NCBI RefSeq assembly: GCF_016097555.1
Contig: NC_054708.1
Span: forward strand, 4,454,796-4,518,795
Direction: 5' to 3'
DNA: 64,000 nt
From: Gigantopelta aegis
Taxonomy: Eukaryota; Mollusca; Gastropoda; Neomphalida; Peltospiridae
In this document: piece by piece, positions 6,498 to 62,960 of the stretch
Position numbering within the stretch: the first letter of the stretch is position 1
Layout of the letters: the number at the start of each line of letters is the position of its first letter
The notes under the pieces: model-generated
What the model was told of the DNA's origin: nothing
Database searches by the model: none
Seen by the model: only the letters and a program-made list of their open reading frames with translations
Program-made: the position numbers and the translations under genes

Positions 6498-7444
6498 TAG
6501 CCCGAGTACTCTGACTGTAAGAGAGCTAGACGGACATTTGGACATAAACACGCTCTCATTACAGTCAGAGACCAACCTATGTCTTTTTTTGGCAATTCCT
6601 GACTACAAAACGGTAGGCAACGAGTCCCGCTCTAATACCACAACAATCCTATGTTTGACGTCAAATACCTTTACATCAATCATTTTCGAGTTAAGTGATA
6701 CAAAAAAATCCACATATTAATTACTAATACACTTACTACAGAAAGAAACCCGACAGCACCCACATTCAGCTACGCTTCGTGACACTCCGTCGCAACAATT
6801 GCAAAGCTCGGCGATCTATTTCGAGACGTAGACCACGTGATCGCGCACTGGGCGATTCCGCCTTGTGCAGCAGTTACAGGGGCCGTCTCATATCAAGCGA
6901 AGTTACAACATGGAAGAGTTGGCTAATGCCGTTTTGGATGAATTTGGATTTCATTACGTCATTAAACCAAAACAATTACACATTATTGATTCCATTTTGA
7001 ATTTTGAAGGATACATTTGGGGTGTTATCGACAGGATACGGCAAAAGTATGTGCTACGTACTGCCTCCTCTTATGAGACGACCCCTTAACTGCTGCACAA
7101 GGCGGAATCGCCCAGTCTCGAAATAGATCGCCGAGCTTTGTAATTGTTGCGACGGAGTGTCACGAAGCGTAGCTGAATGTGGGTGCTGTCGGGTTTCTTT
7201 CTGTAGTATGTGTATTAATGATTAATATGTGGATTTTTTTGTATCACTTAACTCGAAAATGATTGATGTAAAGGTATTTGACGTCAAAGATAGGATTGTT
7301 GTGGTATTAGAGCGGGACTCGTTGCCTACCGTTTGGTAGTCAGGAATTGCCAAAAAAAGACATAGGTTGGTCTCTGACTGTAATGAGAGCGTGTTTATGT
7401 CCAAATGTCCGTCTAGCTCTCTTACAGTCAGAGTACTCGGGCTA
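6498..7444. mobile_element. Long fold-back element with long inverted arms and apparent 9-bp flanking repeats
   Basis: The left arm (6498 to about 6897) and right arm (about 7063-7444) are near-perfect inverted copies of roughly 380 bp; the left arm has an extra block of about 22 bp. The ends read TAGCCCGAGTACTCTG. Flanks CTCTCCAAG (6489-6497) and CCCTCCAAG (7445-7453) look like a 9-bp target duplication with one mismatch, which with very long TIRs suggests a Mutator-like element. The loop carries a short frame with a helicase-like N-terminal pattern. Short relatives of the end sequence lie at 26792 and 29451. Confidence 0.7.
6899..7062 (+). pseudogene. Possible captured fragment of a RecQ-like helicase gene in the fold-back loop
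   Basis: The loop between the arms is open in the frame MEELANAVLDEFGFHYVIKP followed by KQLHIIDSILN. The order 'acidic start, EFGF, (I/L)KPKQ, hydrophobic segment' is that of the N-terminal lobe of RecQ-type helicases just before motif I (family pattern, from memory). The Walker A motif that should follow is absent; the frame runs straight into the right arm. It can only be a fragment. The match is short, so an unrelated origin is possible. Confidence 0.35.
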
Positions 7445-33665: not shown

Positions 33666-36600
33666 CTGCAATTATCACAAAAAAAACAATCAGAATTCAA
33701 TCCACTATTGCTAATTCATTTAAAAATAACATTTCTAATAACAAAGTGGCTCCAGAGTGCATGTATACTAAAAATCTTTTAAGGACTTTTAAATACATTT
33801 TTTGTGTTTACAAGAACATTTGTCCGTTACAAGATACCATAACATTACCAACTATACATACATGCACACTTACTGCTCACGTATACAAACATGTACCCAC
33901 AGACTCGGAGACAAGTGAGTTGACATAAGCACTCATAAATTTTCTTACTTAAACACACTTTCCATAAAGGTGATTCCACACATGATTTATTGTGTGTGTT
34001 TCCGGAAATGTGCTTTTCTATATCTGGGTTTTCGCAGGGTCAATTACAAAACAAGAGTTGACGTCAACAAAGTGTACTTTTAAACTGATAGTAAATACTT
34101 CGCGTTATGACGTCACCACTCTGAAAAACTTGCGCATGGAAAATCGCTCATGAATCGTCATTTTTTTCAGTGTGCTAAATACCCACATGTGGAATTGCAT
34201 GTATGGAAAAGGTACTATGTATATGCACTGTATTGTTAATGGAAAGCAGGAGTCAGAAATGTCCAGTTTCAGTGTTTGTATAAATACAAAAATATCTTTC
34301 GGAATATCCATCGTTAAAACATTTCAGCATCACCCCATACTACAAAGCTAGGACTATAGCAAGTATGTGAACCACATGGTATCATATTTATAGGTTAAAT
34401 GTCTCATTAATTGTTGTTTAGACACTGCCAAAGGGATGTTGTCAACTAATTTCAGTGTGTTATTTGAGAGATGGGTTACAATGGCTACAACAAAACCCCA
34501 TTACCTTGATTCCGATGCTATATAACCGTAAATATAATGTGTTGAGTGTGTCGTTAAATAAAACATTTCCTTCCTTCCATTACCTTGATTCCGATGCTAT
34601 ATAACCGTAAATATAATGTGTTGAGTGTGTCGTTAAATAAAACATTTCCTTCCTTCCATTACCTTGATGAAACAAACTCGGATGAAGTTCTCTCCCATGT
34701 GTTTGTGCTCCTTGCTATAAAATGCTGACGGAGGAATTGACGCCAGTTTCTGAAAATTAACAAATATAAGTTTGAAATAAACATGTCTTATAGGATCTTA
34801 GGTATTATCGACTTCTGAAATCAGAGTCAAAGACAAAAAAAGAGAAAGAAATGTTTTATTTAATGATGCACTCAACACATTTTGTTTACGGTTATATGGT
34901 TAACGGCCACTAAGATATCGAGAGAGGAAACCCGCTGTCGCCACTTCATGGGCTACTCTTTTCGATTAGCAGCAAGGGATCTTTTATATGCACCATCCCA
35001 CAGACAGGGTGGTACATACCACGGCCTTTGATATGCCAGTCGTGGTGCACTGGGTGGAGCGAGAAATAGCCCAAAGGGCCCACCGACGGGGATCGATCCC
35101 ACACCGACCGCGCATCAAGCGAGTGCTGTACCACCGAGCTATGTCCCACCCGTGAGTAAAAAACAAAGTCTCTGTCTCAGCCACTGAATTTTCTCAACGT
35201 TTCGTTAATATACTATTAACATCATCAGGGGAAGTTCTGAAATGAATATTTGTAAGACTATAACAAAGATAAAACTCTGTGGCTTAATAAAATGTCATAC
35301 ATTATATTTTACATTAACTAGCATCAAAATGGACCACTGAGCATCTACATTAAAAGAAAAATTGCAGGCTTGCACACTTTGGACACGACGGGCCTGTGAA
35401 TATATTAAATGCAGTTCATTCACAACAAAAGTGAACTGTCACATGGAAGCTGGCTAAGCATTATATTTATTTTGGTATCGTAACTTGATCTTATGTTAAA
35501 TAGTCTACAGACAGGAAATCTGATTATAGTGGACTCTGTCTTAACCAGATTCAGGGAGGACTGACAAAATGCACCAGTATGCAAGCATTGAAATAAGTCG
35601 AGAATGATTGTTCAGGTTACCACATGTCCAGAAAGTAGAGAATAGTACTTTAATAGTACTTTAGTCCTATAGTTCTGCACAAAATCTTATTAAACTAAAA
35701 CTACAGCACCTACATTTTGATCAAGTGAGTGATATTTAGATACACATACAGTACCGGTACAGTGAAAACTGCGACTTGAATGAATAACAAAGTATATCAG
35801 TTTATGTGTGAAGGGATTTTTACAGTAATAATGTCAATACAAATGTTGTAACCTATAGTTTATAGGTATGGTTTAAACAATATTTATTTCACAAAAGAAA
35901 TGGATTGGCAAACAGGCCGTTGGCCTATATTAATGCCTCTCCACACGTACTTTGTTACATACAATTTATAATATACACATATATCAGTTGACATGTTCTT
36001 CAGAGAATTTAAAAGAATTACATAATTGGCACTCAATCATTAAAACAAGTTTAAAAGACCATGAAATTAATATACTTGTCCATGTGCATACATACCCATG
36101 TACATAAATATATGCGATTTTCTAAGATTAACTTACATCAGTGATTCTCGCCCACCGCCCACAGTACAGCAGCCAAACTTTCAAGTGACAATGTGATGTA
36201 GGATAAGTGGCTTTAAGAAGTTTATTGGTATGTATTTTGTGGTAACCTGTACGTGGGTTACCAGACACCTTACTTATTTCGATGCCTGTACACAGAGTGC
36301 TGGATTACACAGAGTGCTGGATTACACAGATTTGATCATTGTAATGAACATGACTTTGAGATTGTGCTGCTGGTTACACAGAAATCTTGATCACACGAAG
36401 TCCACAGTACTTCATTCTCACTAACAACACAAACCTTCTCCTTCGTCATCCACTTGACAAACTTAAAATCTTTTGGTTCATCTTCATCAGACGTGGGAGT
36501 ATCTAAAAGAGAAATTAAAAAAAGAAATAAACTTTGTAGAATGCAAATCTTATGCTGGGCATTTTTATACTGGTTTGACTGTCAAAACAAATGACAAGGT

Positions 36601-39600
36601 CTTTTTTTTAATCGATGTGAAGTAAAACTAAAGTAAACTTAGTAAAAACTAAAATTTGGTTGTGTCTGTGGTGTGATCTTTAAAAGCTGAATTTGCTAGA
36701 CACATTAATAAAAATATGCATTTCAGTGTGTACACAACATACCTGTGTCAATGCAATAACATCAGGACACATTATTTTCCTAATAAGAGAAACAATGGAT
36801 AAGACGTATAACGTTGACAACAAGAATGTTCTTAATAATATACTTTGTCCAAGTAAAGCAAACTAATATCCAGGCCTCTCCTTTATCCTATTTGTGAAAA
36901 GCATGCTTAAACTCAAAATGTTTCCACTGTCAGAACATCAGCTGTAAACATGATGTACTTTAAGATAAAGCTTACAGTGATAACTCTAATTTGTGTTTTC
37001 GTATTACCGTGGATTCAAAACTGATTGTGTCTCTAGAAAGCACTAATGCAAAGTAAATGTATAGCATGTATAAAAGAAGTTTAATGATGATGGCAAGCTG
37101 TTACCTGGTGTATTAACAGACACTTAATTTAATTTGCATCATACAAGCATTTCATAAGAAGAGAGTAAAATCTAACTGTAACATACCAAATGTGGAAATG
37201 TCGGCCAACATGAAATAGCCTCCTTCTGGGATGACGGGAGACATGCCGACGTCCTGCAACATCTGTGCCAGTCTGTCACGCTTCGGCTCCAGGTCCACAG
37301 GGAGCTGATGTAGGTAACTGTCAGGGCTGTCCAGACGACCCAGTTCCACCTCGAAACTCGCAGCTATGGCTTCCTGAAACAGTCCAAGAATGAAAATTGC
37401 TCATGGAATGACAAAACATCTATTACTCATCAAACTGGACAAACAATATTACTCTCTATTTGATGAAGATGACTAAGCTCAGTTTCATTAATAAAATGGA
37501 CCCAAATAATGGAAAATCTTTAAGGAATTTATGATCAAATATATTGGACAAACTCAAGATCTTACAAAAGTTATATAACTGTGTATGATGTTGATGTAAA
37601 ACCACTGATTTACTCAAACTGATCGCAGTGTTTACGAAGTAAAACTATGAATACATAAATTACAACCCATGATAAACTTGTAGTTTTGATAGCTGCAGGA
37701 CACACCAAATAGTTGGTTACAGTATTAAGCTATACTGGAGTGATGCTCAGGCTGAGTCTATAACTTAGGATTGGATCTGTATATTGTGCACAACCATGCG
37801 TTTCAGTACACCTTAAGAATTAACCTATTGTAAACACTTCTGTACACTGAAAAACATTTTCATTTTTTAAGCTAAGTGATATTGATTTGATTGATCTCAG
37901 CAATTAGAACACAAGAGTATCAATCAACAAAGAGGAATGACTGTGTTAAATGCTCACAAGAGGTAAATTAACTTGCAACCATAAACAGGAGACCCATACA
38001 AGGGCAGATGTAAGATTTCAAAGAGGGAGGAACTAAGATTGTAAACTGACTCTTGAATCAATGAAATGACCAGGTCAGCGGATGATCATTTCAGTTTTTT
38101 GTTTAACGACACCACTAGAGCACATTGAATTATTAATCATTGGCTATTGGATGTCAAACATATGGTCATTTTGATAGTCACAGAGAGGAAAACTGCAACA
38201 TTTTTCCATTAGTTGCAAGGGATCTTTTTATATGCACCATCCCACAGACAGGACAGCACATAACACTTCCTGGAACTAGAAATAAGCCAATGGGCCACCA
38301 ATGGGAATCGATCCCAAACTGACCCTGCATCAAGCCAGCGCTTTACCACTGGGCTACATCCCGCCCTGAATATGATAACTAAGACAATTAGTAGAAAGTA
38401 AGTCAAGCAGTGAAAAACTGCCTATAGTATTGATGAATATGGGTAGGTTAAATATCAATCAAAGAGACTAAAGTTATGACGACAAAGACAAAGAGAAGAA
38501 ACCCGCCTGCAGTATTGTTGGACACGTGTAGTTACAGTTCTGATGCATGGTCCTCATCCCCAACATGAGGTGTTCCGGGCCCACAGTCCAACCGAGTTTC
38601 CACCCCGTCACGTTGAACGTCTTCCCTGCACTCCCGATTGTCAGCGTTCTTTCAAACATCCCTGGCAGAGACGCTGTGAAAGAGTAAATAGATCTGTCAT
38701 CAACAACAAAATTTCATTTCTAAACTACAATGTATTCTATGAGTAAACATTAATGGAAACTCACTTTTATTCTTTTAAGATTTATTTATTTGAATTAAAT
38801 TGTTAAATTTGATTGCGTATTGTTTAGGAGGTGGGATGTAGCTCAGCTGTAAAGTCCTCGTCTGATGTGCAACCAGTCTGGGATTGATCTCCGTCAGTGG
38901 GCCCATTTGGCGATTTCTCGTTCCAGCCAGTACACCACAATTGGTGTGACAAACACCGTGGTATGTACTATCCTTTGCCGCTAAATGAAAAAGACCTGCA
39001 TGTTTCGTTTCCTCTCTCATTATCATTGAGGCCCTTAACCATATATCTGATGCCGTATATCACCAAAACTAAAATGTGTTGAATGCATCATTAATATACA
39101 AAAACACATACCAGTTATTTTGCCATGTTATTTATTGCACAAGTTGATAGTACGCAAGATTATTATTCCACGAGACCATGTAGCAGTCGAGTGATATAAA
39201 TCTTTCACACTATAAACAAGAGCAATAAACTGATATGAGATTCTGTATTTATTACATACCACCTTCCTATGTTATGATTATCAAAAGTTTAATTAAATAA
39301 CACAACTTACTTCGTCTGGAAAGTTGACTGAATTTTATGGAACTGACGGAATGCTGAGCATCTTGGCTAGGGACATGATGTCATTCTGGTGAACACGTAC
39401 TACGCACGTGATATTCTGTATCACACATATGTTCAATAAAATATTGTTTTATTGCACGGTCAGAATTGTCATTACTATAGTAAGATTAAATGGGTATCTA
39501 ATAAAACATTTCTTACTTCTTTCTTTGAATATTGTTTAGTGTTGGTTTTAGCACTCACCAATCTTTATGTGTTTGTTCGCTTTGTACACCAGCCATTCAT

Positions 39601-42600
39601 ACACTTCATCAGCAATACACACAACATCATACTTGATACACAGGCCAGCTATCAGCTCCAGTTCGTCCTTTGTGAACACCTAAAATACACACAACATCAT
39701 ACTTGATACACAGGCCGGCTATCTGCTCCAGTTCGTCCTTTGTGAACACCTAAAATACACACAACATCATACTTGATACACAGGCCGGCTATCTGCTCCA
39801 GTTCGTCCTTTGTGAACACCTAAAATACACACAACATCATACTTGATACACAGGCCGGCTATCTGCTCCAGTTCGTCCTTTGTGAACACCTAAAATACAC
39901 ACAACATCATACTTGATACACAGGCCGGCTATCTGCTCCAGTTCGTCCTTTGTGAACACCTAAAATACACACAACATCATACTTGATACACAGGCCGGCT
40001 ATCTGCTCCAGTTCGTCCTTTGTGAACACCTAAAATACACACAACATCATACTTGATACACAGGCCGGCTATCTGCTCCAGTTCGTCCTTTGTGAACACC
40101 TAAAATACACACAACATCATACTTGATACACAGGCCGGCTATCTGCTCCAGTTCGTCCTTTGTGAACACCTAAAATACACACAACATCATACTTGATACA
40201 CAGGCCGGCTATCTGCTCCAGTTCGTCCTTTGTGAACACCTAAAATACACACAACATCATACTTGATACACAGGCCGGCTATCTGCTCCAGTTCGTCCTT
40301 TGTGAACACCTAAAATACACACAACATCATACTTGATACACAGGCCGGCTATCTGCTCCAGTTCGTCCTTTGTGAACACCTAAAATACACACAACATCAT
40401 ACTTGATACACAGGCCGGCTATCTGCTCCAGTTCGTCCTTTGTGAACACCTAAAATACACACAACATCATACTTGATACACAGGCTGGCTATCTGCTCCA
40501 GTTCATCTTTCGTGAACACCTAAAATACACACAACATATTTAATACACAGGCCGGCATCAGAAGATAGAAAATGGCGTAGCCAAAATTTTAGCCATTTGC
40601 AAATTTTATTAACCATGACAGGCGAAAATTAGTTTTATTCTATTTCCAAAACTACTTTAGTATATTAGTATTAACACTCCTAACATACAAAACTATTACA
40701 ACTCTGATCTCACCAAACCATCATTTAACATATAGGCCTACTACAGCAAAACAAAAAAGCAGTGTGTGGGAGGGGGGCTGCGTAATAGAATAAAACTGAT
40801 TTTCATTGATTATTTCTTTCATATTAAAGTGACAAATAAATATTTTGTAACTATATCTATTTAATGATACTCTACCTAATTTAGCATTTACTTATTTGGG
40901 CTCTCATTTATGTACAAGGTGGTGTTTACTCTTGAAATTCAAAGAAAGATGTCAGTAAACAGGTGATTTGCAAATTTATTGGAACACACTATAACAAATT
41001 TTGATTGACATGTGTCAATTTCATTTACCCTTAAAAACAAACTTTTAATTTAAAACTGCAAGTTAACTGAGTATTTTGAATTGCAGCATAAATTATTAAT
41101 TATGACCAGCATATTTAGTGAATATAAATTCAATATAAGTACATTAGAAATGTACACAATCTTGCAACCACTTAAAGGTGCTATATCATAGATATATGTG
41201 AGCATCTGTTTGTGATAAAGATTCTCCAATAAAAATGTATTTTCTACTAGTAGATAAAACTATTTCATTATAACCATTTGTGGGCATATAGTTGAAGGTA
41301 TAGTCGTTAAATTTTAAAGCAAAATTTAATTTAAAATGATTGCAATAGCTGTCATTATGCAACACTGAGATAGCACCTTTAATACCGGTATAATATATCA
41401 CACACTCAGAATGGTTACTGACAGTTTTGCTCAAATGTTACTTATAAATGTCTACAACTATTTTGTTTTGGAGAGGGATACGGGTAAACCATCATCACAG
41501 AAAGAAAGAAAGAAATGTTTTATTTAACGATGCACTCAACACATTTTATTTATGGTTATATGGCGTCAGACATATGGTTAAGGACCACAAAGATTTTGAG
41601 AGGAAACCCGCTGTCGCCACTACATGGGCTACTCTTTCCGATTAGCAGCAAGGGATCTTTTATTTGCACTTCCCACAGACAGGATAGCACAAACCATGGC
41701 CTTTGTGGAACCAGTTATGGATCACTGGTCGGTGCAAGTGGTTTACACCTACCCATTAAGCCTTGTGGAGCACTCACTCAGGGTTTGGAGTCAGTATCTG
41801 GATTAAAAAATCCCATGCCTCGACTGGGATCCGAACCCAGTACCTACCAGCCTGTAGACCGATGCCATCATCACAGATGAATAACAATGAAATTGACACA
41901 TATCATCAAAAAAAATTATAGTCTGTTCCAATAAAGTTCACAAATCACCTATTTTCTTTGAATTTCAAGAGTAAACACCACCTTGTACATCAATGAGAGC
42001 CCAAACAAGTAAATGCTAAATTAGGTTGAGTATCATTAAATACATATTTACAAAATATTTACTCGTCGGTTTAATATGAAAGAAATAATTGATGAAAATC
42101 ATTTTCATTCTATTTCCGACACTACTTTAGTTTTTCAACTGGCTTTTATTTGTTTTTTCTTTGATGTCGGTGAAAACAAAAGGGGGGGGGGGGGGGGGGG
42201 GGGGTGTATTTCAGTTGGGTTTTTTGTTCATATATCACATATTTTGACCAGCTTACAATGGTAAACGAAAGTGACCATACGAAACCTTTCCAAGTGGGTT
42301 GTTGGGTGTGTTCATCAGTATCAATTTGGTTTTCTCGTTAAAAAGACTCTCCAGTTCTTGAGGGTCCAGCTTCCAGTCGGCACTTGATGTTGTTTTCCCA
42401 GACTTAGTCTGAAAATCATAAAAGAACGTTTGTTTGTCAACACCTAAGCACATTTTAAACTATAGCTACCTGGTGTCCAGCAGCCCGTCATGTTGATTAA
42501 TGGTCAAAACTAATCATTTCTGGCACTCGTCCTTTTGTGTAGTCTGAAGAAAATCAATCCTTGAAGTGAGCTTTAACCGTTGATTTTCTTGAGATGAGTG

Positions 42601-45600
42601 TCAGAAAACAAATCTACAAAAAGACGAGTCCTAAAAATATTTTCTAGTTCAATGAATCTTATTATTTTAGTATAATTATTATAAAATTCACTGCATTTTA
42701 TTTTTGTACTGTGATGTCACTCCTTCTCTCAGCTGATATATATTATGTTACTAAAAAGAATGCATGCAGCATTATATATTACATGATGTAACATAATCAA
42801 TAGGTATAAATGGCTGTCTACCTCCTAAGTGACGAGACCAATCGACCAATGAACAGGGTACATTACCATATAGCGGACGTGTTCTAGACAGTTTTTCTAG
42901 CACAGCTTTCTACTGGCTGATTGAACTAGAATATAAGACTGGAAACTCACAGCTATCACATAGGCTACTCCTAATGAATAGCAGAAAGGGATCTTTTATA
43001 CGTGCTCTCTTAAAGATAGGAAGGCCCATACCATGGCTTTTGCTCAACAGCATAGCATGGATTTGATACTGAAGAAAAAGGATAGGCACTAAAACAAAGT
43101 CCTTCTCTATTAAGTCATGTTAGGACAGTATAAAAGGCGGAGGGAAAAATGTGTGATTGAGGGTGGAGGGTGCATGTCCCCACCCCCCTCTTGCCATACC
43201 AATGCCTTTGGTATTGAAGTAATGAAGATGGAGAAAAAAATTAGATTCAATGACAGGTGTTGATCTAATGACCGACAGCTCATCAAGCGAGTCTCCACCT
43301 TAAAAATAAACTGACCATCACATACATCATGTATATGACACTGGGGATTGATAATGACTCTTTTCCTATAAATGACTGGATCAGCAAAACTGATAACCAT
43401 TTGATTTTAAAATCTCATACATTATTTAATCTCTAATTCTGTCAATGAATACAACTTTCAAAGAAGTAAATTTAAAAAGAATTCATGTACTTACTGGTCT
43501 AAGGGGAATAAATCTTGGTACTGCTCCTGCTACTCGTACCATTGGCTCATAGCAGTCAAAGAATGGCTCGATGATGATAACCTACAGAGAATATTTATAC
43601 AGTAGCACCCCAGAATTGTATTTAAGTGTTGGGCTTTCATATATGTGAACTGAAAGGAGAAACCTGCCACTGAATCATACAGGTTACACTTATTAACAGC
43701 CGTCTTTTTACGGGTAGTTTTGTACTTTCACGCAGATAGATTAGCACACACCACAACATGTGATATACTAACTGTAGAGCTTTGCTTAAAACGTTGATCT
43801 GTAAATATAATAACAATTTAGCAACGATGACAACAGTTAAAGATGTCAGAAATGCACAAAAATGTGTACTGCCTTGTGTAAGTGTGAAAAGCCTGACCTA
43901 CTACAACTGAGTGAGTGATGATAGCCCTAGTACAACTCTGTGACCCAAGGCCCACATTTTCGAAGATATCTTAGCACTATGATATCGTAACTGGAAACAT
44001 TGACACATGCACACATTGTGATATGACACACATATGCATGTGTGCCCACACACATACATACACACCATGAATAACCCATTAAACTTTACAAAATCATATC
44101 TCTGGGCAAGGCAGAGTCTAAAGAACAGTTTGGCAATATACCTGGGTCTACTAAGCCCACAATAACATATTTACCTCATCTCCTGGATTCACCAGACCCT
44201 GGATTGCACAGAACAGGGCTCCGTATGCCCCAACCGACACAAGGAGCTGTGACATGGGGTCAATGGTCTGACCAATCAGTGGCGAGTATAGCTTGGCCAG
44301 TGCCTTCACAAGGCGAGGGTGACCCTATCAGAAAAACAAGCAGAAAGAGATACACAATCCAAGAATTATTTTGAATAATCATGTCACAGAAGCTATTCTT
44401 ATGAACGGTAGCAAGGAATATTTGATAAATACTTTTCACAGAACAAATGCACATATTAGGGCCTTTCATATGCCAGTTGTTCATTTCAGTTCAATATAAT
44501 ATATAATGTATATTACCAGATTACCTGACTAGGAGTACCTTCATCAGACTATTACCAGATTACCTGACTAGGAGTACCTTCATCAGACTATTACCAGATT
44601 ACCTGACTACTAGTACCTCTATCAGACTATTACCAAATTACCTGACTACGAATACATATGTACCTTCATCAGACTATTACCAGATTACCTGACTACTAGT
44701 ACCTCTATCAGACTATTACCAAATTACCTGACTACGAATACCTTCATCAGACTATTACCAGATTACCTGACTACTAGTACCTCTATCAGACTATTACCAA
44801 ATTACCTGACTACGAATACCTTCATCAGACTATTACCAGATTACCTGACTACTAGTACCTCTATCAGACTATTACCAGATTACCTGACTACTAGTACCTC
44901 TATCAGACTATTACCAAATTACCTGACTACTAGTATCTTTATCAGACTATTACCAGATTACCTGACTACTATTACCTCTATCAGACTATTACCAAATTAC
45001 CTGACTACGAATACCTTCATCAGACTATTACCAGATTACCTGACTACTAGTACCTCTATCAGACTATTACCAAATTACCTGACTACGAATACCTTCATCA
45101 GACTATTACCAGATTACCTGACTACTAGTACCTCTATCAGACTATTACCAAATTACCTGACTACTAGTATCTTTATCAGACTATTACCAGATTACCTGAC
45201 TACGAATACCTTCATCAGACTATTACCAAATTACCTGACTACTAGTATCTTTATCAGACTATTACCAGATTACCTGACTACTATTACCTCTATCAGACTA
45301 TTACCAAATTACCTGACTACGAATACTTTCATCAGACTATTACCAGATTACCTGACTACTAGTACCTCTATCAGACTATTACCAAATTACCTGACTACTA
45401 GTATCTTTATCAGACTATTACCAGATTACCTGACTACGAATACCTTCATCAGACTATTACCAGATTACCTGACAACTAGTACCTCTATCAGACTATTACC
45501 AGATTACCCGATTACTAGTACCTCTATCATACTATTACCAGATTACCTGACTACGAATACCTTCATCAGACTTACCAGATTACCTGACTACTAGTACCTC

Positions 45601-48600
45601 TATCAGACTATTACCAGATTACCTGACTAGGAGTACCTTCATCAGATTATTACCAGATTACCTGACTACTAGTACCTCTATCAGACTATTACCAAATTAC
45701 CTGACTACTAGTATCTTTATCAGACTATTACCAGATTACCTGACTACGAATACCTTCATCAGACTATTACCAGATTACCTGACAACTAGTACCTCTATTA
45801 GACTATTACCAGATTACCTGACTACTAGTACCTTTATCAGACTATTACCAGATTACCTGACTACTAGTACCTCTATCAGACTATTACCAGATTACCTGAC
45901 TACGAATACCTTCATCAGACTATTACCAGATTACCTGACTAAAAGTGTACCTCTATCAGACTATTACCAGATTACCTGACTACGAGTACATTCATCATAC
46001 TATTACCAGATTACCGGACTATGGGTGTACCTCTATCAGACTATTACCAGATTACCTGACTTGGGTGTACCTCTATCATACTATTACCAGATTACCTGAC
46101 TACGAGTACATTCATCATACTATTACCAGATTACCTGACTACGAGTACATTCATCAGACTATTACCAGATTACCTGACTACGAGTACATTCATCATACTA
46201 TTACCAGATTACCTGACTACGGGTGTACCTCTATCAGACTATTACCAGATTACCTGACTATGGGTGTACCTCTATCAGACTATTACCAGATTACCTGACT
46301 ACGAGTACATTCATCATACTATTACCAGATTACCTGACTACGGGTGTACCTCTATCAGACTATTACCAGATTACCTGACTACTAGTACATTCATCATACT
46401 ATTACCAGATTACCTGACTACGGGTGTACCTCTATCAGACTATTACCAGATTACCCGACTACGAGTACATTCATCATACTATTACCAGATTACCTGACTA
46501 CGGGTGTACCTCTATCAGACTATTACCAGATTACCCGACTACGAGTACATTCATCATACTATTACCAGATTACCGGACTATGGGTGTACCTCTATCAGAC
46601 TATTACCAGATTACCTGACTTGGGTGTACCTCTATCATACTATTACCAGATTACCTGACTACGAGTACATTCATCATACTATTACCAGATTACCTGACTA
46701 CGAGTACATTCATCAGACTATTACCAGATTACCTGACTACGAGTACATTCATCATACTATTACCAGATTACCTGACTACGGGTGTACCTCTATCAGACTA
46801 TTACCAGATTACCCGACTACGAGTACATTCATCATACTATTACCAGATTACCTGACTACGGGTGTACCTCTATCAGACTATTACCAGATTACCCGACTAC
46901 GAGTACATTCATCATACTATTACCAGATTACCTGACTACAGGTGTACCTCTATCAGACTATTACCAGATTACCCGACTACTAGTACATTCATCATACTAT
47001 TACCAGATTACCTGACTACGGGTGTACCTCTATCAGACTATTACCAGATTACCTGACTACTAGTACATTCATCATACTATTACCAGATTACCTAACTACG
47101 GGTGTACCTCTATCAGACTATTACCAGATTACCTGACTACTAGTACATTCATCATACTATTACCAGATTACCTAACTACAGGTGTACCTCTATCAGACTA
47201 TTACCAGATTACCTGACTACTAGTACATTCATCATACTATTACCAGATTACCTGACTACGGGTGTACCTCTATCAGACTATTACCAGATTACCTGACTAC
47301 TAGTACATTCATCATACTATTACCAGATTACCTAACTACGGGTGTACCTCTATCAGACTATTACCAGATTACCTGACTACTAGTACATTCATCATACTAT
47401 TACCAGATTACCTAACTACAGGTGTACCTCTATCAGACTATTACCAGATTACCTGACTACTAGTACATTCATCATACTATTACCAGATTACCTGACTACG
47501 GGTGTACCTCTATCAGACTATTACCAGATTACCTGACTACTAGTACATTCATCATACTATTACCAGATTACCTAACTACGGGTGTACCTCTATCAGACTA
47601 TTACCAGATTACCTGACTACGAGTGTACTGGTTGACTGTGACGTTATCACTCTTTGCTGCATTCACCAGAGCATCCAGTACGTGCTGGGGTGGCATGAAA
47701 TCGGGAAAACCCTGAAACAAACAGAAAGTGTTACGTTGTTCATTCTTCATAATGTTTGCAGTGAAATTCATGTTTGTTAAACAAGACTCAAGCACATTGT
47801 TTAATCTGTGGTTATTACCTGAAGGTATAAAACATGTATGTTACTAATTAGCAGACACAGTTCTTTTCACACTGGCAGAATACTACTAACAGCAGCAGTG
47901 TGATGTATGCTGCTCCTCAACACAGACAGTAATAACTTCATCTGACATTCTTCAGTTACCACTTCCATACAGATCACAACACCAGGCAACATTTTGTTCA
48001 GCATTTGTCACAAATCATTATGCCAGTTTCAGAGAACACTACACAATTTTAAAACATTTAACAGTAGTTGCTAATCAATTTTCAATTGACTAGAAATATA
48101 GCTACTCAAGACTTTGAAAACATTGTTCCTTGAACACAGATCATATCATCATTTGATTCCATTACCCTCACCAGTTCCATACAGATCTCAACAGGTTAAC
48201 CTAATTGTTTATAACCGAGTTAATAACCAACAAGATTCCAAGACATACCTGTCCAAGATTCAAAGCTTTGCATTCTGCAGCCAGCTTCCCAAAATCCACC
48301 CTGTACAACAAATGTAAAGGAAAAAATGTGTAAAAGAAAGCATTTGTAATGGGAGACATTGCGTACATGTCTGTTTTGTTTGTTCATCTATCTGGATCTT
48401 CATCATTATGCTTGCTAACTATGAAAGCTATCCATTGAAGGAGGAGTCTAATTAAGGCAGATGGAGAAACTTAACCACAAATTAACTCGGTGATCGTGGA
48501 CACTTCTATGATGTAGCAACAATACTAAATATTGAATAAAACTGTTGAATCATTTGATAAGCTAGGAAGCATTGTCAATCTGCTGTTTACTGAATCATAT

Positions 48601-50467
48601 GTAAGCAAAGTACTGGACCTATAACTAATGCGGAAAGCAAGAAGGCAGCCTACCTCACCGTTAAACAGGATAACAAGGCTTTTTACCAAGCTGGAGAAGT
48701 CCCTATTTTATTGTGCCCTTATTGTCTTTTTTACTGCTGCTCCCCACCATTATTTTCAATGAGGTACAACCATACAGGAAATTACACACCATATATTTTT
48801 CTCAGTTCCCTTGAGCTTATCAGAGATGCCATGTTTTCCTGTCGACATTTCCTGCAAAAACAAACAATCCAAAATATTCAGTCATAAAGAACCACTAACA
48901 GTAAATGTTTTGCAAGTTGTGGAATACCAAGATGCTTTTTAAAACATATACTGGCACTTTATGACATTAAAAGGGCTTATGTTAATTAAATATGATATAT
49001 TGAACAAGTGGATACAACATCGTGAAGAATAGAGGTGAACACACCGGTGACTATTATAAATAAGGCTTTACTGTTATACATGTTATAGTAGTAAGTCTGC
49101 ATGGAGTGGGGTGAGAGTGAGGTGTGGGGAGGTGGTATTGATTTTTGCTAGAAGTGCTAAACAAAACAAACATTATCAGTTGTTGAAATATGTAACTAAA
49201 TATAATTACCAGAAATAAGTGCAGTCAATTGTTAAATATGTTTTACAAAAAGTAAATTATAACTTGTCATTGCATTCAAGCTATTTCTTTGGCCTCCACA
49301 GATGAAAATGATATGATCTATAGGTATTTCAGTAAGCTTGATGGTATTATATTTAACATATATATGTAAGCTATCTGCAGTCTTAATTTGTTTTGTTAAA
49401 AGGTGGATGGGAGAGCTTTGTGCCACAACACACCATTTGTACAAGTACTTGTATATATCAGGTTGAATTACATGCAATCAGTGACAATTTACATATACAA
49501 GGCCTATTAAGGGGACATTCCACAATTATATGCACTAGGGGAAAGGATAGGCCTATTGTGTAATGCATTATGAAATGATATGGGAGGGAGGGGGCGTAGT
49601 CACACATTACAGAAGGGTGAATAGCCTCAGTGTTTTTGGTTTTTGTTTAACACCACCACTGGAGCACATTGATTACTTAATCATCGGCTATTGGGTGTCA
49701 AACATTTGGTAATTCTGACTAACAGTCATCAGAGGAAACCCGCTACATTTTTCCTATGGGATCTTTTGTGTATGCACTTTCCCACAGACAGGAAAATACA
49801 TACCACGACCTTTGTCCAGTTGTGGTGCACTGGTTGGAATGAGAGAAAAAAAACAATCAGCTGAATGGATCCACAGAGGTGGTTCGATCCTAGCCTCGGT
49901 GATACAAATGTTACATGGTGGGAGCAGGGCTCGAAACTCGACAAAAAATATGTTGGCCCAAAAAATAATAATACATGTTGGCAAATTAAGGTAAGCTAAT
50001 CATGAACCACGAGCTAGATTTTAATGTGGAATAAATATATGCAATACAAATATTAATAGTGGCTCATACTTATAGCTTTAAAGATCAACCAAATAATATT
50101 ATTTGGGTGACTAACACCATTATTTTTTAATATTTAAGTCACCCAAAGAGGACATTGGTCGCATTTGGCGACATGGCCACAGGCCGTTTCGAGCCCTTGG
50201 TGGGAGGGGGTACATAAAAAATGACATGATTGTTGAACAGCACTTAAAATCACAGTATGTACACTACATTATCAAACATTTAAAACAGTGATCCAGCAAG
50301 CTAGATGTTACCAAACTACTGTCACACCATGCATGCTACAGGACCAAAATCAGACTTACTTTAATTCCCACCAAGGGGCAAATAATCCTTGACAGCCGAA
50401 GGCAGTTCTTTGAAGTCATTAATATATAGTTTGAAGAAAGGACTCTTGCTACTCGAACAAACATCAT
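33600..50467 (-). CDS. KYAT3: Kynurenine aminotransferase (KYAT3-like), complete 13-exon gene
   Basis: Thirteen minus-strand exons join in phase to 458 codons: 50360-50467, 48790-48851, 48249-48300, 47613-47711, 44175-44324, 43495-43581, 42286-42408, 39559-39679, 38507-38673, 37187-37373, 36435-36502, 34663-34749, 33600-33665. The product is a fold-type I PLP aminotransferase that converts kynurenine to kynurenic acid and also acts as a cysteine-S-conjugate/glutamine transaminase. Landmarks: LNLGQGFPDF (about 71-80), [18 protein letters not shown] (Asn223), IADEVYEW (Asp251, Tyr254), the PLP-lysine motif SAGKTF (Lys285) and the carboxylate Arg432 in NFIRVCF. Residues 1-36 ([12 protein letters not shown]..., Arg-rich, no acidic residue) look like a mitochondrial presequence; Met38 in exon 2 would give a 421-residue cytosolic form, nearly the length of KYAT1. 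Family assignment is from remembered human KYAT1/3 sequences. Intron 9 begins with GC. Three splice junctions are duplicated by repeats. Confidence 0.93.
34499..34668 (+). mobile_element. 5'-truncated SINE tail at the exon 12 donor, tandemly doubled
   Basis: CATTACCTTGAT occurs at 34499-34510, 34578-34589 and 34657-34668; between are two identical 67-bp pieces of SINE tail 1 (TCCGATGCTATATAACCGTA ... GTCGTTAAATAAAACATTTC). On the coding strand the repeated 12-mer is ATCAAG|GTAATG, the exon 12 end and donor. Confidence 0.93.
34663..34749 (-). CDS. KYAT3: KYAT exon 12, substrate-carboxylate arginine
   Basis: [20 protein letters not shown] then NFIRVCFIK. Arg432 in FIRVCF binds the substrate alpha-carboxylate in this family. 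The exon ends ATCAAG|GTAATG; that donor lies in the target duplication of a SINE fragment (34499-34668). Confidence 0.93.
34845..35151 (-). mobile_element. SINE, head B with tail 1, in intron 11
   Basis: Minus strand from GGGTGGGACATAGCTCGGTG to GCATCATTAAATAAAACATTTC. Mixed head and tail. Confidence 0.9.
35152..36434. other. KYAT intron 11, left part
   Basis: No exon or TE ends seen. 36290-36330 holds a short tandem CAGAGTGCTGGATTACA x 2. Confidence 0.5.
36435..36502 (-). CDS. KYAT3: KYAT exon 11
   Basis: Completes Asp386, then [27 protein letters not shown] is characteristic of the family. The acidic start is the variable loop. Donor AAG|GTTTGT. Confidence 0.9.
37187..37373 (-). CDS. KYAT3: KYAT exon 10
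   Basis: [20 protein letters not shown] then [20 protein letters not shown] and [21 protein letters not shown] and GGYF are family motifs of the small domain. Donor GTATGT. Confidence 0.93.
38093..38366 (-). mobile_element. SINE, head B with tail 2, in intron 9
   Basis: Minus strand from GGGCGGGATGTAGCCCAGTG to GTCGTTAAACAAAAAACTG. Near full length. Confidence 0.9.
38507..38673 (-). CDS. KYAT3: KYAT exon 9, catalytic lysine; GC donor
   Basis: [20 protein letters not shown] then [20 protein letters not shown] and [11 protein letters not shown]. Lys285 in SAGKTF forms the PLP Schiff base. The exon must end after CTGCAG to stay in phase with exon 10 (EAIAASFE), and the next bases are GCGGGT, so intron 9 appears to be of the rare GC-AG class. 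Confidence 0.92.
38829..39100 (+). mobile_element. SINE, tRNA-like head B with tail 1, in intron 8
   Basis: GGTGGGATGTAGCTCAGCTG head, GGGATTGATCTCCG B-box region, and a decayed tail near ATGTGTTGAATGCATCATTA. Diverged. Confidence 0.8.
39559..39679 (-). CDS. KYAT3: KYAT exon 8
   Basis: [20 protein letters not shown] then [20 protein letters not shown] plus one base. Asp251 and Tyr254 of ADEVY contact the PLP pyridine nitrogen and O3'. Only this copy of the repeated start continues into CIADEVYEW and a GTGAGT donor. Confidence 0.93.
39680..40555 (-). repeat. 70-bp minisatellite copying the exon 8 acceptor and exon start
   Basis: Twelve full 70-bp units plus a partial one lie directly upstream of exon 8. 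Each holds, on the coding strand, TGTGTGTATTTTAG|GTGTTC and then exon-8-like sequence encoding [20 protein letters not shown]. Eleven units are identical or nearly so; the outermost differ. The real exon has Leu (ELELIAG) where the copies have Gln. The shared GTTGTGTGTATT at both unit ends is the likely recombination point. Confidence 0.97.
40790..41030 (+). repeat. Inverted-repeat arm in intron 7 (partner 41885-42115)
   Basis: Opposite-orientation partner of 41885-42115. The SINE at 41501-41864 and about 470 other bases lie between the arms. Confidence 0.8.
41501..41864 (-). mobile_element. SINE, head A (slightly truncated) with tail 1, 12-bp TSD
   Basis: CCATCATCACAG is duplicated exactly at 41489-41500 and 41865-41876. 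On the minus strand it starts CATCGGTCTACAGGCTGGTA, missing the first part of the tRNA head, and ends GTTAAATAAAACATTTCTTT. Exact TSD and high identity mark it as young. Confidence 0.93.
41885..42115 (-). repeat. Inverted-repeat arm in intron 7 (partner 40790-41030)
   Basis: CACAAATCACCTATTTTCTT, AGAGTAAACACCACCTTGTA and AGTAAATGCTAAATTAGG are the inverse of words at 40880-40980. About 220 bp, diverged by small changes. Confidence 0.8.
42182..42205. repeat. G run in intron 7
   Basis: About 23 consecutive G, 80 bases from the exon 7 donor. Confidence 0.93.
42286..42408 (-). CDS. KYAT3: KYAT exon 7
   Basis: [20 protein letters not shown] then [21 protein letters not shown]. The second Asn of NTPNN (Asn223) hydrogen-bonds PLP O3'. 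The donor AAG|GTTTCG is weak. Confidence 0.93.
42940..43055 (-). mobile_element. Degraded SINE fragment in intron 6
   Basis: Landmarks 'ataggctactcctaatgaat', 'aaagggatcttttatacgtg' and 'ggcccataccatggcttttg' follow SINE order. Confidence 0.55.
43495..43581 (-). CDS. KYAT3: KYAT exon 6
   Basis: [20 protein letters not shown] then VPRFIPLRP: the [10 protein letters not shown] motif of the family, whose Tyr stacks on the cofactor. Consensus donor GTAAGT. Confidence 0.93.
44175..44324 (-). CDS. KYAT3: KYAT exon 5
   Basis: [20 protein letters not shown], then a segment with [19 protein letters not shown] and NPGDE. GAYGALF contacts the PLP ring and phosphate. The acceptor is TTTTTCTGATAG; donor GAG|GTAAAT. 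50 codons, phase 0 at both ends. Confidence 0.93.
44395..44480 (-). mobile_element. Degraded SINE fragment in intron 4
   Basis: Landmarks in SINE order: GGTAGCAAGGAATATTTGAT, then TTTTCACAGAACA, then GGGCCTTTCATATGCCAGTT. Old and heavily diverged. Confidence 0.5.
44512..47628 (-). repeat. Minisatellite built from the exon 4 splice donor
   Basis: About 77 units of 39-41 bp fill intron 4 from the exon border. On the coding strand each unit reads roughly (C)GTAGTCAG|GTAATCTGGT then AATAGTCTGATGAATGTAC, so each repeats the last bases of exon 4 plus the donor. Near the exon (45945-47612) units alternate as 41- and 39-mers, forming an 80-bp dimer; further away (44512-45940) they are mostly 39-mers with GTAATT or GTAATC donors. 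Confidence 0.97.
47613..47711 (-). CDS. KYAT3: KYAT exon 4, donor seeds a minisatellite
   Basis: [20 protein letters not shown] then [17 protein letters not shown] and NQYTR are family hallmarks (the NQYTR Tyr lines the active site of the partner subunit). The exon ends CGTAGTCAG|GTAATC; this junction is the first unit of the repeat array that fills most of intron 4. Confidence 0.93.
48249..48300 (-). CDS. KYAT3: KYAT exon 3
   Basis: Completes Trp57 and encodes [17 protein letters not shown], the strand leading to the conserved NLGQGFPD turn. Donor CAG|GTATGT. Confidence 0.9.
48301..48789. other. KYAT intron 2, nothing notable
   Basis: A/T-rich intron sequence without exons or recognised repeats. 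Confidence 0.5.
48790..48851 (-). CDS. KYAT3: KYAT exon 2, with internal start codon
   Basis: TTTTTGCAG acceptor, then [26 protein letters not shown] and two bases of a Trp codon. The Met three bases into the exon can start a shorter, leaderless protein if an alternative first exon is used. Donor ATATG|GTGTGT. Confidence 0.85.
48852..49637. other. KYAT intron 1, right part, nothing notable
   Basis: At 49507 TTAAGGGGACATTCCACAAT resembles one end of the TTAA-type MITE at 16631, possibly a solo remnant. Confidence 0.4.
49638..49905 (-). mobile_element. SINE, tail 2, in KYAT intron 1
   Basis: SINE order on the minus strand ending GGTGTTAAACAAAAACC. Head diverged. Confidence 0.82.
49925..50198. 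mobile_element. hAT-type MITE with exact 8-bp TSD, in KYAT intron 1
   Basis: Ends CAGGGCTCGAAACT and, on the other strand, AAGGGCTCGAAACGGCC. GGTGGGAG is duplicated exactly at 49917-49924 and 50199-50206. 274 bp, 161 bases from the exon 1 donor. Confidence 0.88.
50360..50467 (-). CDS. KYAT3: KYAT exon 1: mitochondrial presequence
   Basis: Starts [20 protein letters not shown] and continues [16 protein letters not shown] before a consensus AAA|GTAAGT donor. An in-frame TAA lies two codons upstream of the first ATG, which fixes the start. Five Arg, two Lys and no acidic residue in 36 positions fit an amphipathic mitochondrial import signal. Phase 0 to exon 2. The evidence for belonging to the gene is strand, phase and the fact that human KYAT3 also has an N-terminal extension; no transcript is available. 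Confidence 0.7.
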
Positions 50468-60555: not shown

Positions 60556-61116
60556 TTAACAGTCTTCAAGAATGATGATGCTAAAATAATCTTTCTTCAA
60601 TAAACTGTCTATTAGTAACAGATGACAACTGTAAGTCACTGCTCCAGGCGACAGATGTTCAAGAATGATGATGCTAAGATAATCTTTCTTCAATAAACTG
60701 TCTATTAGTAACAAATGACAACCGTAAGTCACTGCTCCAGGCGACAGATGTTCAAGAATGATGATGCTAAGATAATCTTTCTTCAATAAACTGTCTATTA
60801 GTAACAAATGACAACCGTAAGTCACTGCTCCAGGCGACAGATGTTCAAGAATGATGATGCTAAGATAATCTTTCTTCAATAAACTGTCTATTAGTAACAA
60901 ATGACAACCGTAAGTCACTGCTCCAGGCGACAGATGTTCAAGAATGATGATGCTAAGATAATCTTTCTTCAATAAACTGTCTATTAGTAACAAATGACAA
61001 CCGTAAGTCACTGCTCCAGGCAACAGATGTTCAAGAATGATGATGCTAAGATAATCTTTCTTCAATAAACTGTCTATTAGTAACAAATGACAACCGTAAG
61101 TCACTGCTCCAGGCAA
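60556..61116 (-). repeat. 93-bp minisatellite x 6, open in one frame
   Basis: Six nearly identical 93-bp units. As 93 is a multiple of three and lacks a stop in one minus frame, it reads as a 31-residue repeat (PGAVTYGCHLLLIDSLLKKD YLSIIILEHL). I see no flanking exon, start context or family match, so I treat it as non-coding. Confidence 0.93.
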
Positions 61117-61257
61117 CAGATGTTCAAAGCTACATGCATGTGTATCTTATACAATATAACCCATTTTTTTTACTCTTGCATTAAACTGAAGCCATCAGAG
61201 CAGAACGAAGTCCATTTGCAAAGCAGTTGCTTGATGCCTGATCAGACCATTTCTTGA

Positions 61258-61490: not shown

Positions 61491-62610
61491 TAAATTTAAG
61501 CCATAATATACATAGTTGCTATGAGTTACAAACAAATTAAATAGATATGGTAGTGCTAATTTGTTTTCCTTTTTTGTATTTTTTAAAACTTTATTAATAT
61601 ATGCAATAACTATAAGAATGTAAATCTGTTTACAGAATGAGTGGAACATGTAACTAACAAAGACCTGCAAAGAATTAAAAATTCCGTTTCCTAAATTATA
61701 AAACAATAAACTCAACAATAAATAACATACTGCCATCTGAGAAATATTGTTCATGGATTCAAATGAAATATTTAAAATAACAAGATAAAAAGTGTGAAAA
61801 TCTACAAACATTTCAAATTTGTTTTGGCACAACACTAAGATGCTTACAGACATGAAGGCAGTTGAAATACACTAGCTAACTGAAAAGATAAAATTCTTGT
61901 GGGATGTCATCTTAAGTTGTGAGTGAACAGCCATATTCTGATTTGAGGGTGGAATTGAAAGTGAAGAAAACTTGAGGTGTTTTCTCTTTTATGAATACTT
62001 CACCTGTCCTCAAACAAAATGCATATTCCCCTAAGGATAGTAGTCTGGTTCGAACATCCCAACAGACAATGGGATGGCCTAAAATTCTCTTCTACCGAGT
62101 CCTCCTTCCTGTTCTGGTCATGTGACTGTAACTTCTTTTCCCTGAGCAAATCACACGGAAAATTGGAAACGGGAAGGCCTGAGAGGGTATAACCCCTTGA
62201 AGACAGTTGAAGTATTCATAAAAAGTGAAAACACTTCACATTTTCTTTTAAACTTCACCTGTCCTCACATAAAATACAGCATTCAACAAAAGGTGGTGGG
62301 TTTTATACTCCAAAGATGCATTCGTATTCTCCCCATAAACTTGGGATGTTCAAACCAAACCACTATCCTTAGGGGAATATGCATTTTGTTTGAGGACAAG
62401 TGAAGTTGAAAAAAAAAATGCCTTCCTACTTCTACAGACCTCACCATTTAAGGGGAGCTATCACTCAGGCTCTCTATCACTCCCCTGATACTAGTTCTAG
62501 AAGACACATTTTAGCTCCTTAGCTTTTGAATTATTTAAAAAAAAAAAACCCTCCAAAAATGACCCCCAAACCAAGAAAAGGATTAAATATCAATGCTTAA
62601 TATTGTAATA
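61491..62610. other. Stretch without a recognised gene; short inverted pair
   Basis: 'cacctgtcctcaaacaaaatgcatattcccctaaggatagtagtctggttcgaacatccc' near 62002-62060 reappears inverted near 62345-62400. This gives an inverted repeat of about 60 bp with a 280-bp loop, possibly a small DNA element spanning about 61975-62410. Confidence 0.5.
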
Positions 62611-62960
62611 TCTACAATGGCTCCCCATAATCCAATATCTTCAATGGCTCCCCATAATCTAATATCTTCCATGGCTCTCCATAATCTAATATCTTCAATA
62701 GCTCCCCATAATCTAATATCTTCCATGGCTCTCCATAATCTAATATCTTCAATAGCTCCCCATAATCCAATATCTTCAATGGCTCCCCATAATCTAATAT
62801 CTTCCATGGCTCTCCATAATCTAATATCTTCAATAGCTCCCCATAATCTAATATCTTCAACGGCTCCCCATAATCCAATATCTTCAACGGCTCCCCATAA
62901 TCCAATATCTTCCATGGCTCCCCATAATCTAATATCTTCAATGGCTCCCCATAATCTACG
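62611..62960. repeat. 27-bp minisatellite x 13
   Basis: Units of the form CTCCCCATAATCTAATATCT TCAATGG at exact 27-bp spacing (CCATAAT from 62625 to 62949). The length is a multiple of three, so several frames stay open on both strands; these are artefacts. Confidence 0.96.

Follow-up and report, generated by a model that had tools for sequence, protein, structure and literature searches.

Results

A minisatellite of splice donors in KYAT intron 4

The exon 4/intron 4 border of KYAT in Gigantopelta aegis is followed by a minisatellite of splice donors that is very probably of the mirage type, having arisen by a duplication crossing the border, grown by unequal exchange or slippage, and been tolerated because the exon-side splice site is used. 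The minisatellite had been proposed in a sequence-only reading of the window (the whole 64,000-nucleotide stretch of DNA analysed here) and proves to be real, with Tandem Repeats Finder delimiting it at 44511-47624, at a period of 39 (78.7 copies) or 80 (39.3 copies), and with the minus strand carrying the donor sequence GTAAT[C/T]TGG 79 times, the true site at 47612 included. The features discussed are listed in Table 1.

The identity of the gene and the position of the junction, both given in that reading, agree with our alignments. The 266-residue protein encoded by exons 3-9 has its matches in the Protein Data Bank among kynurenine aminotransferases (best E 1.6e-114), and three alignments to solved members of this family run ungapped across both the exon 4/5 and the exon 7/8 junction, which places the end of exon 4 at the first donor of one array and the start of exon 8 at the last acceptor of another. 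The exon 4/intron 4 junction, at 47613|47612 on the minus strand, reads CGTAGTCAG|GTAATC. Exon 9 has an apparent GC donor at 38507 (CTGCAG|GCGGGT). A search of window positions 34000-49000 against Rfam gave no matches at the gathering score. A second, diverged KYAT-like gene is present elsewhere in the genome (G000:C1467 29829-32009, loci L031 and L032), with no minisatellite found at those of its exons located by three tblastn matches.

Table 1. Splice-border arrays and associated exons (window coordinates, except for CCT6).
Feature	Position	Strand	Basis and remarks
KYAT exon 4 (GFPDF...NQYTRSQ)	47613..47711	-	phase 0, end CAG|GTAATC; ungapped 4/5 alignment to relatives
Donor array: true donor, 78 decoys and the terminal 16 nt of exon 4	44511..47628	-	Tandem Repeats Finder, donor count
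Units 1-6 and units 7-12, identical neighbouring blocks of 240 bp beside exon 4	47133..47612	-	0/240 differences
KYAT exon 5 (GHPRLV...PGDE)	44175..44324	-	ordinary acceptor
Acceptor array: 13 copies at a spacing of exactly 70 bp, TTTTAG|GTGTTCAC and 65 nt of exon 8	39614..40556	-	Tandem Repeats Finder, sequence reading
KYAT exon 8	39559..39679	-	final copy in the acceptor array supplies its acceptor; 7/8 junction aligned
KYAT exon 12 (...RVCFIK)	34663..34749	-	placed by reading the sequence; only first residues aligned to C1467 relative
Tripled donor ATCAAG|GTAATGG around two 66-bp SINE-tail fragments, 79-bp period	34498..34668	-	Tandem Repeats Finder, sequence matching
CCT6 acceptor array	L049 1940-4891		93 bp x 31.8; 32 copies of TTTATACAG|GTG, the real acceptor being the last

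The donor array occupies 94% of intron 4 (3102/3288 nt) and is built mostly of 39- and 41-bp units, with higher-order repeats of 80 and 240 bp. The triplet preceding the donor is CAG in 66 of the 79 (CAG|GTAAT[C/T]; 55 C, 11 T), CGG in 6, TAG in 5 and CCG in 2, with donor-to-donor steps of 39 (56), 41 (19), 40 (2), 37 (1) and 47 nt (1), where one of the 39-nt steps is the final unit, its length set by the counting script. In the 41-bp units the likeness to exon 4 covers ~16 nt and goes no farther; these units bear GTACACCCGTAGTCAG, identical at 15 of 16 positions to the exon 4 end GTACACTCGTAGTCAG, and the 39-bp units have two bases of the exon-like stretch missing. The unit also includes GTAATCTGGTAATA, the same sequence being present at the far end of the array ahead of unique intron sequence, and for 11 bp of the unit (GTCTGATAGAG) no source was found. 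Since exon 4 is conserved in distant relatives, the exon is the ancestor of the repeat, and the likeness of the unit to the final 16 nt of exon 4 and to the start of the intron shows, as the earlier reading held, that it arose from the exon 4/intron 4 border itself. An 18-nt form that encodes RYTRSQ after CTGATAG, also described there, is exact in nine units. A 201-bp junction query against the 1.15-Gb genome (1,149,253,464 bases) returned 35 matches, all within the exon 4 border and the array, in a search that scored the best candidates only and skipped very common words.

The 78 units fall into 28 types. Units 13-18 depart from the two identical 240-bp blocks at only four of their 240 positions, and units 43-78, farther from exon 4, are 39-mers except for two. 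The identical blocks are the youngest-looking part of the array and probably mark a recent expansion; together with 11 identical units in the acceptor array at exon 8, they suggest recent turnover.

Consequences and strength of the decoy donors

Reading past the true donor, the first codons kept would be GTA ATC TGG TAA, and 78 of the 78 main decoy donors give an in-frame stop. The same holds for 459 of the 460 GTs between the true donor and 44400, the sole open one being the true donor. The sequence-only reading had expected wrong donors to shift the frame, which steps of 39 nt would not do, although the point is immaterial as every decoy gives a stop; its suggestion of a variable exon 4 length likewise finds no support, with every later donor giving a stop.

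Scored with a human donor matrix, 66 decoys reach or exceed the true donor (67 donors including the true one), with comparably scoring donors elsewhere on the minus strand of the window at 0.85 per kb. The calculated U1 pairing energy of 54 decoys equals that of the true donor, and 11 GTAATT decoys are weaker. Strength therefore cannot single out the true site, and the silence of the decoys would not be explained by predicted site strength.

Pairing each AG with donors up to 60 nt away gives 541 combinations, 71 of which preserve the frame and are stop-free, nine of these being RYTRSQ. Ahead of the 34 AGs that read TGATAG|AGGTAC, the pyrimidine share averages 0.49, compared with 0.73 for the ten real KYAT acceptors (range 0.56-0.88, exon 8 being the lowest), and inclusion of the 18-nt micro-exon proposed earlier thus seems unlikely. 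A recursive splice site consists of a pyrimidine tract ahead of a juxtaposed AG|GT. The AG|GT sites of the KYAT donor array (n=78) lack such a tract, with a mean pyrimidine share of 0.37 and a maximum of 0.50 compared with 0.73 in real acceptors, making recursive splicing, raised in the same reading, unlikely at this array.

Border arrays at KYAT exons 8 and 12 and in CCT6

The array at exon 8 is the mirror image of that at exon 4, repeating an acceptor in place of a donor. Neither this array, nor the tripled donor of exon 12, nor the precedent in amphioxus figures in the sequence-only reading. Eleven of its 13 units are identical, the first differing at 4 places and the last, which is the real exon, at 2, and each acceptor is preceded by the terminal part of the exon 8 segment that was copied (TGATGTTGTGTGTATT). 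All 12 upstream acceptors lead to a stop, with the last acceptor open.

The donor of exon 12 is present at 34662, 34583 and 34504, with both later copies leading to a stop. The 66-bp fragment has six further matches in the window (82-91% over at least 53 bp), some of which we take to be the ends of SINE-like elements with what are presumably mollusc-like tails. The 13-bp donor-containing repeat looks like the target-site duplication of a truncated retroposon, doubled later, and this case suggests one possible way of seeding a border array. No such retroposon or target-site trace was found in the two larger KYAT arrays.

A 10-kb piece (L049), taken from a genome search with PF00118 and chosen without knowledge of its repeats, holds three minisatellites with a period of at least 15 and codes for part of CCT6 (T-complex zeta). 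One of these repeats the acceptor, all 31 upstream copies of which lead to a stop, and the third ends ~30 nt ahead of an acceptor. The remaining one, a 24-bp array at 6964-7129, repeats the pyrimidine tract of an acceptor and stops one base before the acceptor. The 93-bp unit reads TTTATACAG|GTGTAAG, with a fair pyrimidine tract (0.70), and is a possible recursive splice site.

In all, the frame is kept solely by exon-side sites, namely the first donor at KYAT exon 4 and the last acceptor in the arrays at KYAT exon 8 and in CCT6. From reading frame and homology, we infer that the spliceosome uses these exon-side sites, and misspliced RNA would presumably be destroyed by nonsense-mediated decay.

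Frequency of arrays at splice borders

Minisatellites are abundant in this genome, in keeping with a mirage-type origin of the KYAT array: sixteen evenly spaced 10-kb pieces of two contigs contained 49 minisatellite arrays covering 17.8 kb of 160 kb (11%). In a strict count, which demanded that the Tandem Repeats Finder span (period at least 15) include the junction, three of four KYAT arrays and one of three CCT6 arrays lie on borders, the CCT6 array at 6964-7129 being left uncounted as one base short. When units were placed at random, using our own junction counts of 21 and 17, and excluding the given array, 0.82 of 6 arrays were expected on borders (P(3 or more of 6) = 0.033); the probabilities are 0.006 for 4 or more of 7 when the given array is included, 0.003 for a looser count of 4/6, and 0.41 for CCT6 alone. 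The apparent excess of arrays at splice borders over random placement is modest, and enrichment there no more than a possibility.

Splice-like motifs showed no enrichment in the 49 sampled arrays (mean rank p 0.45 for donors and 0.58 for acceptors), and a threshold count of acceptors, 0 seen against 1.3 expected, is not relied on. A genome-wide pattern of three CAGGTAAGT copies gave 451 matches against 234 for a backward control, with 8 distinct arrays against 3 in the control among the matches listed for the stretch that the two lists share (contigs C1 to C3 at 46.5 Mb), donors being common words. Tandem exon matches were absent from 64 PF00118 matches (87 of 95 candidates scored) and from 14 PF00171 matches (12 of 118 candidates scored), in a check that sees only arrays with a long exon part and in which the CCT6 array did not show. 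Very long minisatellites occur among the sampled pieces at L040 6114-10000 and L046 4175-6615, with several periods in the range 59-225 bp and with 57.7 copies of 42 bp. Within the window, further arrays lie at 62606-62958 (27-bp x 13) and 60565-61127 (93-bp x 6), at which no exon border was recognised by eye in a six-frame reading.

Discussion

In the history that we consider very probable, a short tandem duplication across the exon 4/intron 4 border would have copied 16 nt of exon and ~25 nt of intron, followed by growth into the intron through unequal exchange or replication slippage, the latter already accepted as a possibility in the sequence-only reading, with the latest growth as 240-bp blocks beside the exon. 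Expansion is possible on the intron side only, since the protein would be lost if the array grew into the exon. The spliceosome would take the exon-side site at both borders, choosing the first donor out of 79 at exon 4 and the last acceptor out of 13 at exon 8, with rare misuse of a decoy giving stop-containing transcripts. Exon definition is the pairing of splice sites across the exon; such pairing across a short exon would pick the first donor and the last acceptor, where a rule of intron-side preference would pick the opposite sites. The sequence shows the anatomy, the exonic origin of the unit, the stop that follows every main decoy, and the recurrence of such arrays within KYAT and in CCT6; the order of these events and the neutrality of the array are probable.

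Were the decoy donors functional, so many U1 sites could alter splicing speed, block early polyadenylation, or allow recursive splicing. The predicted strength and U1 pairing of the decoys, their density compared with the rest of the minus strand, the formal AG|GT character of each CAG|GTAAT, and the repeated CCT6 acceptor, with its fair pyrimidine tract followed by GTGTAAG, are in keeping with this proposal. We nevertheless regard it as improbable, with the low pyrimidine share ahead of the KYAT AG|GT sites differing from that of real acceptors, the variety of unit types pointing to free turnover, and the mirror array repeating acceptors and not donors, so that no single U1 function fits both. 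That the array yields micro-exons or longer forms of exon 4, and with them a protein that varies between individuals, seems extremely unlikely; whilst the frame-preserving, stop-free AG-to-donor pairs, including those for RYTRSQ, would permit it, the AGs before the 18-nt form are without a pyrimidine tract, every later donor used without a new acceptor leads to a stop, and the insertion point falls inside NQYTR..GHP, which is ungapped in three alignments.

It is very improbable that the array was inflated during assembly from just one or a few units. Identical units, such as the 11 of 70 bp and the 240-bp blocks, are hard to assemble, and PMC3087553 reports one amphioxus mirage misassembled in a draft. 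However, 28 unit types in ordered higher-order patterns are unlike a simple artefact, further border arrays are present elsewhere in KYAT and in CCT6, and the contig bearing the array measures 91.7 Mb. A mirage-type minisatellite thus remains our preferred reading. The broader proposal that splice borders are birthplaces of minisatellites in this genome, seeded at AG|GT by duplications or by the target-site duplications of retroposons, and that the mirror arrays demonstrate that exon-side pairing decides, and not strength or intron-side closeness, is a tentative one that we consider rather doubtful.

Ordinary intronic minisatellites (VNTRs) have comparable unit sizes, higher-order repeats, and recent change polarised to one end. 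The KYAT array shares its unit size, higher-order repeats, and polarity with these, but unlike them its unit includes coding-exon sequence together with a real splice site, and one edge of the array is fixed at the exon. Intron gain by AGGT duplication places a new intron between the duplicated sites within a former exon, and the duplication in the potato RdRp gene is reportedly one of AG|GT sites. The tandem duplication described for potato RdRp in PMC4974935 creates duplicate splice sites, as in KYAT, whereas the KYAT copies lie inside an existing intron and no new intron has been made, the exon 4/5 junction being colinear with relatives. In earthworm metallothionein, minisatellite-like intron repeats and exon 4 duplications absent from the final transcript, as outlined in PMC12783039, resemble the situation in KYAT; compared by description, the portion of that paper available to us mentions no splice site in the repeat unit.

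The closest resemblance is to mirages, tandem duplications of exon/intron borders named in amphioxus Adh3 according to PMC3087553, which cites Canestro 2002 as their first description. The same paper describes mirages at the 5' and 3' borders of amphioxus globin genes, where RT-PCR suggests undisturbed splicing, and mirage clusters of unstable length, with mirages cited also for TnC and likened to PGBD5 repeats in PMC3902484. The units found here span an exon/intron border of a real gene and repeat the AG/GT signals at 5' or 3' borders (79 donors, 13 acceptors and 32 CCT6 acceptors), and their anatomy, as judged from sequence, thus fits the description of the amphioxus mirages (Adh3, BflGb6, BflGb9, TnC and PGBD5; PMC3087553 and PMC3902484). 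As described for BflGb6, the inner units of the KYAT acceptor array are more alike than its edge units. In contrast to BflGb6, in which border units are described in PMC3087553 as escaping homogenisation, similarity among the KYAT donor units is greatest next to the exon. Copy numbers here are also far higher than the 6 and 3 units given there for the two BflGb6 haplotypes, and, unlike the amphioxus mirages so described, three cases occur in a single gene (KYAT). No reports of mirages outside amphioxus were found in the literature searched, most subscription papers being beyond its reach; as far as these searches show, the scale, the three cases in one gene, and the host other than amphioxus are new.

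Splice-site choice is usually tested with few competing sites. KYAT presents 79 near-identical donors at one border and 13 near-identical acceptors at another, and in each set the protein can be made only from the site on the exon side. Transcripts of this animal would reveal how strict the exon-side choice is and what the decoys cost in waste RNA. If border arrays are common, they would also offer material from which introns could grow and new splice patterns emerge in animals other than amphioxus.
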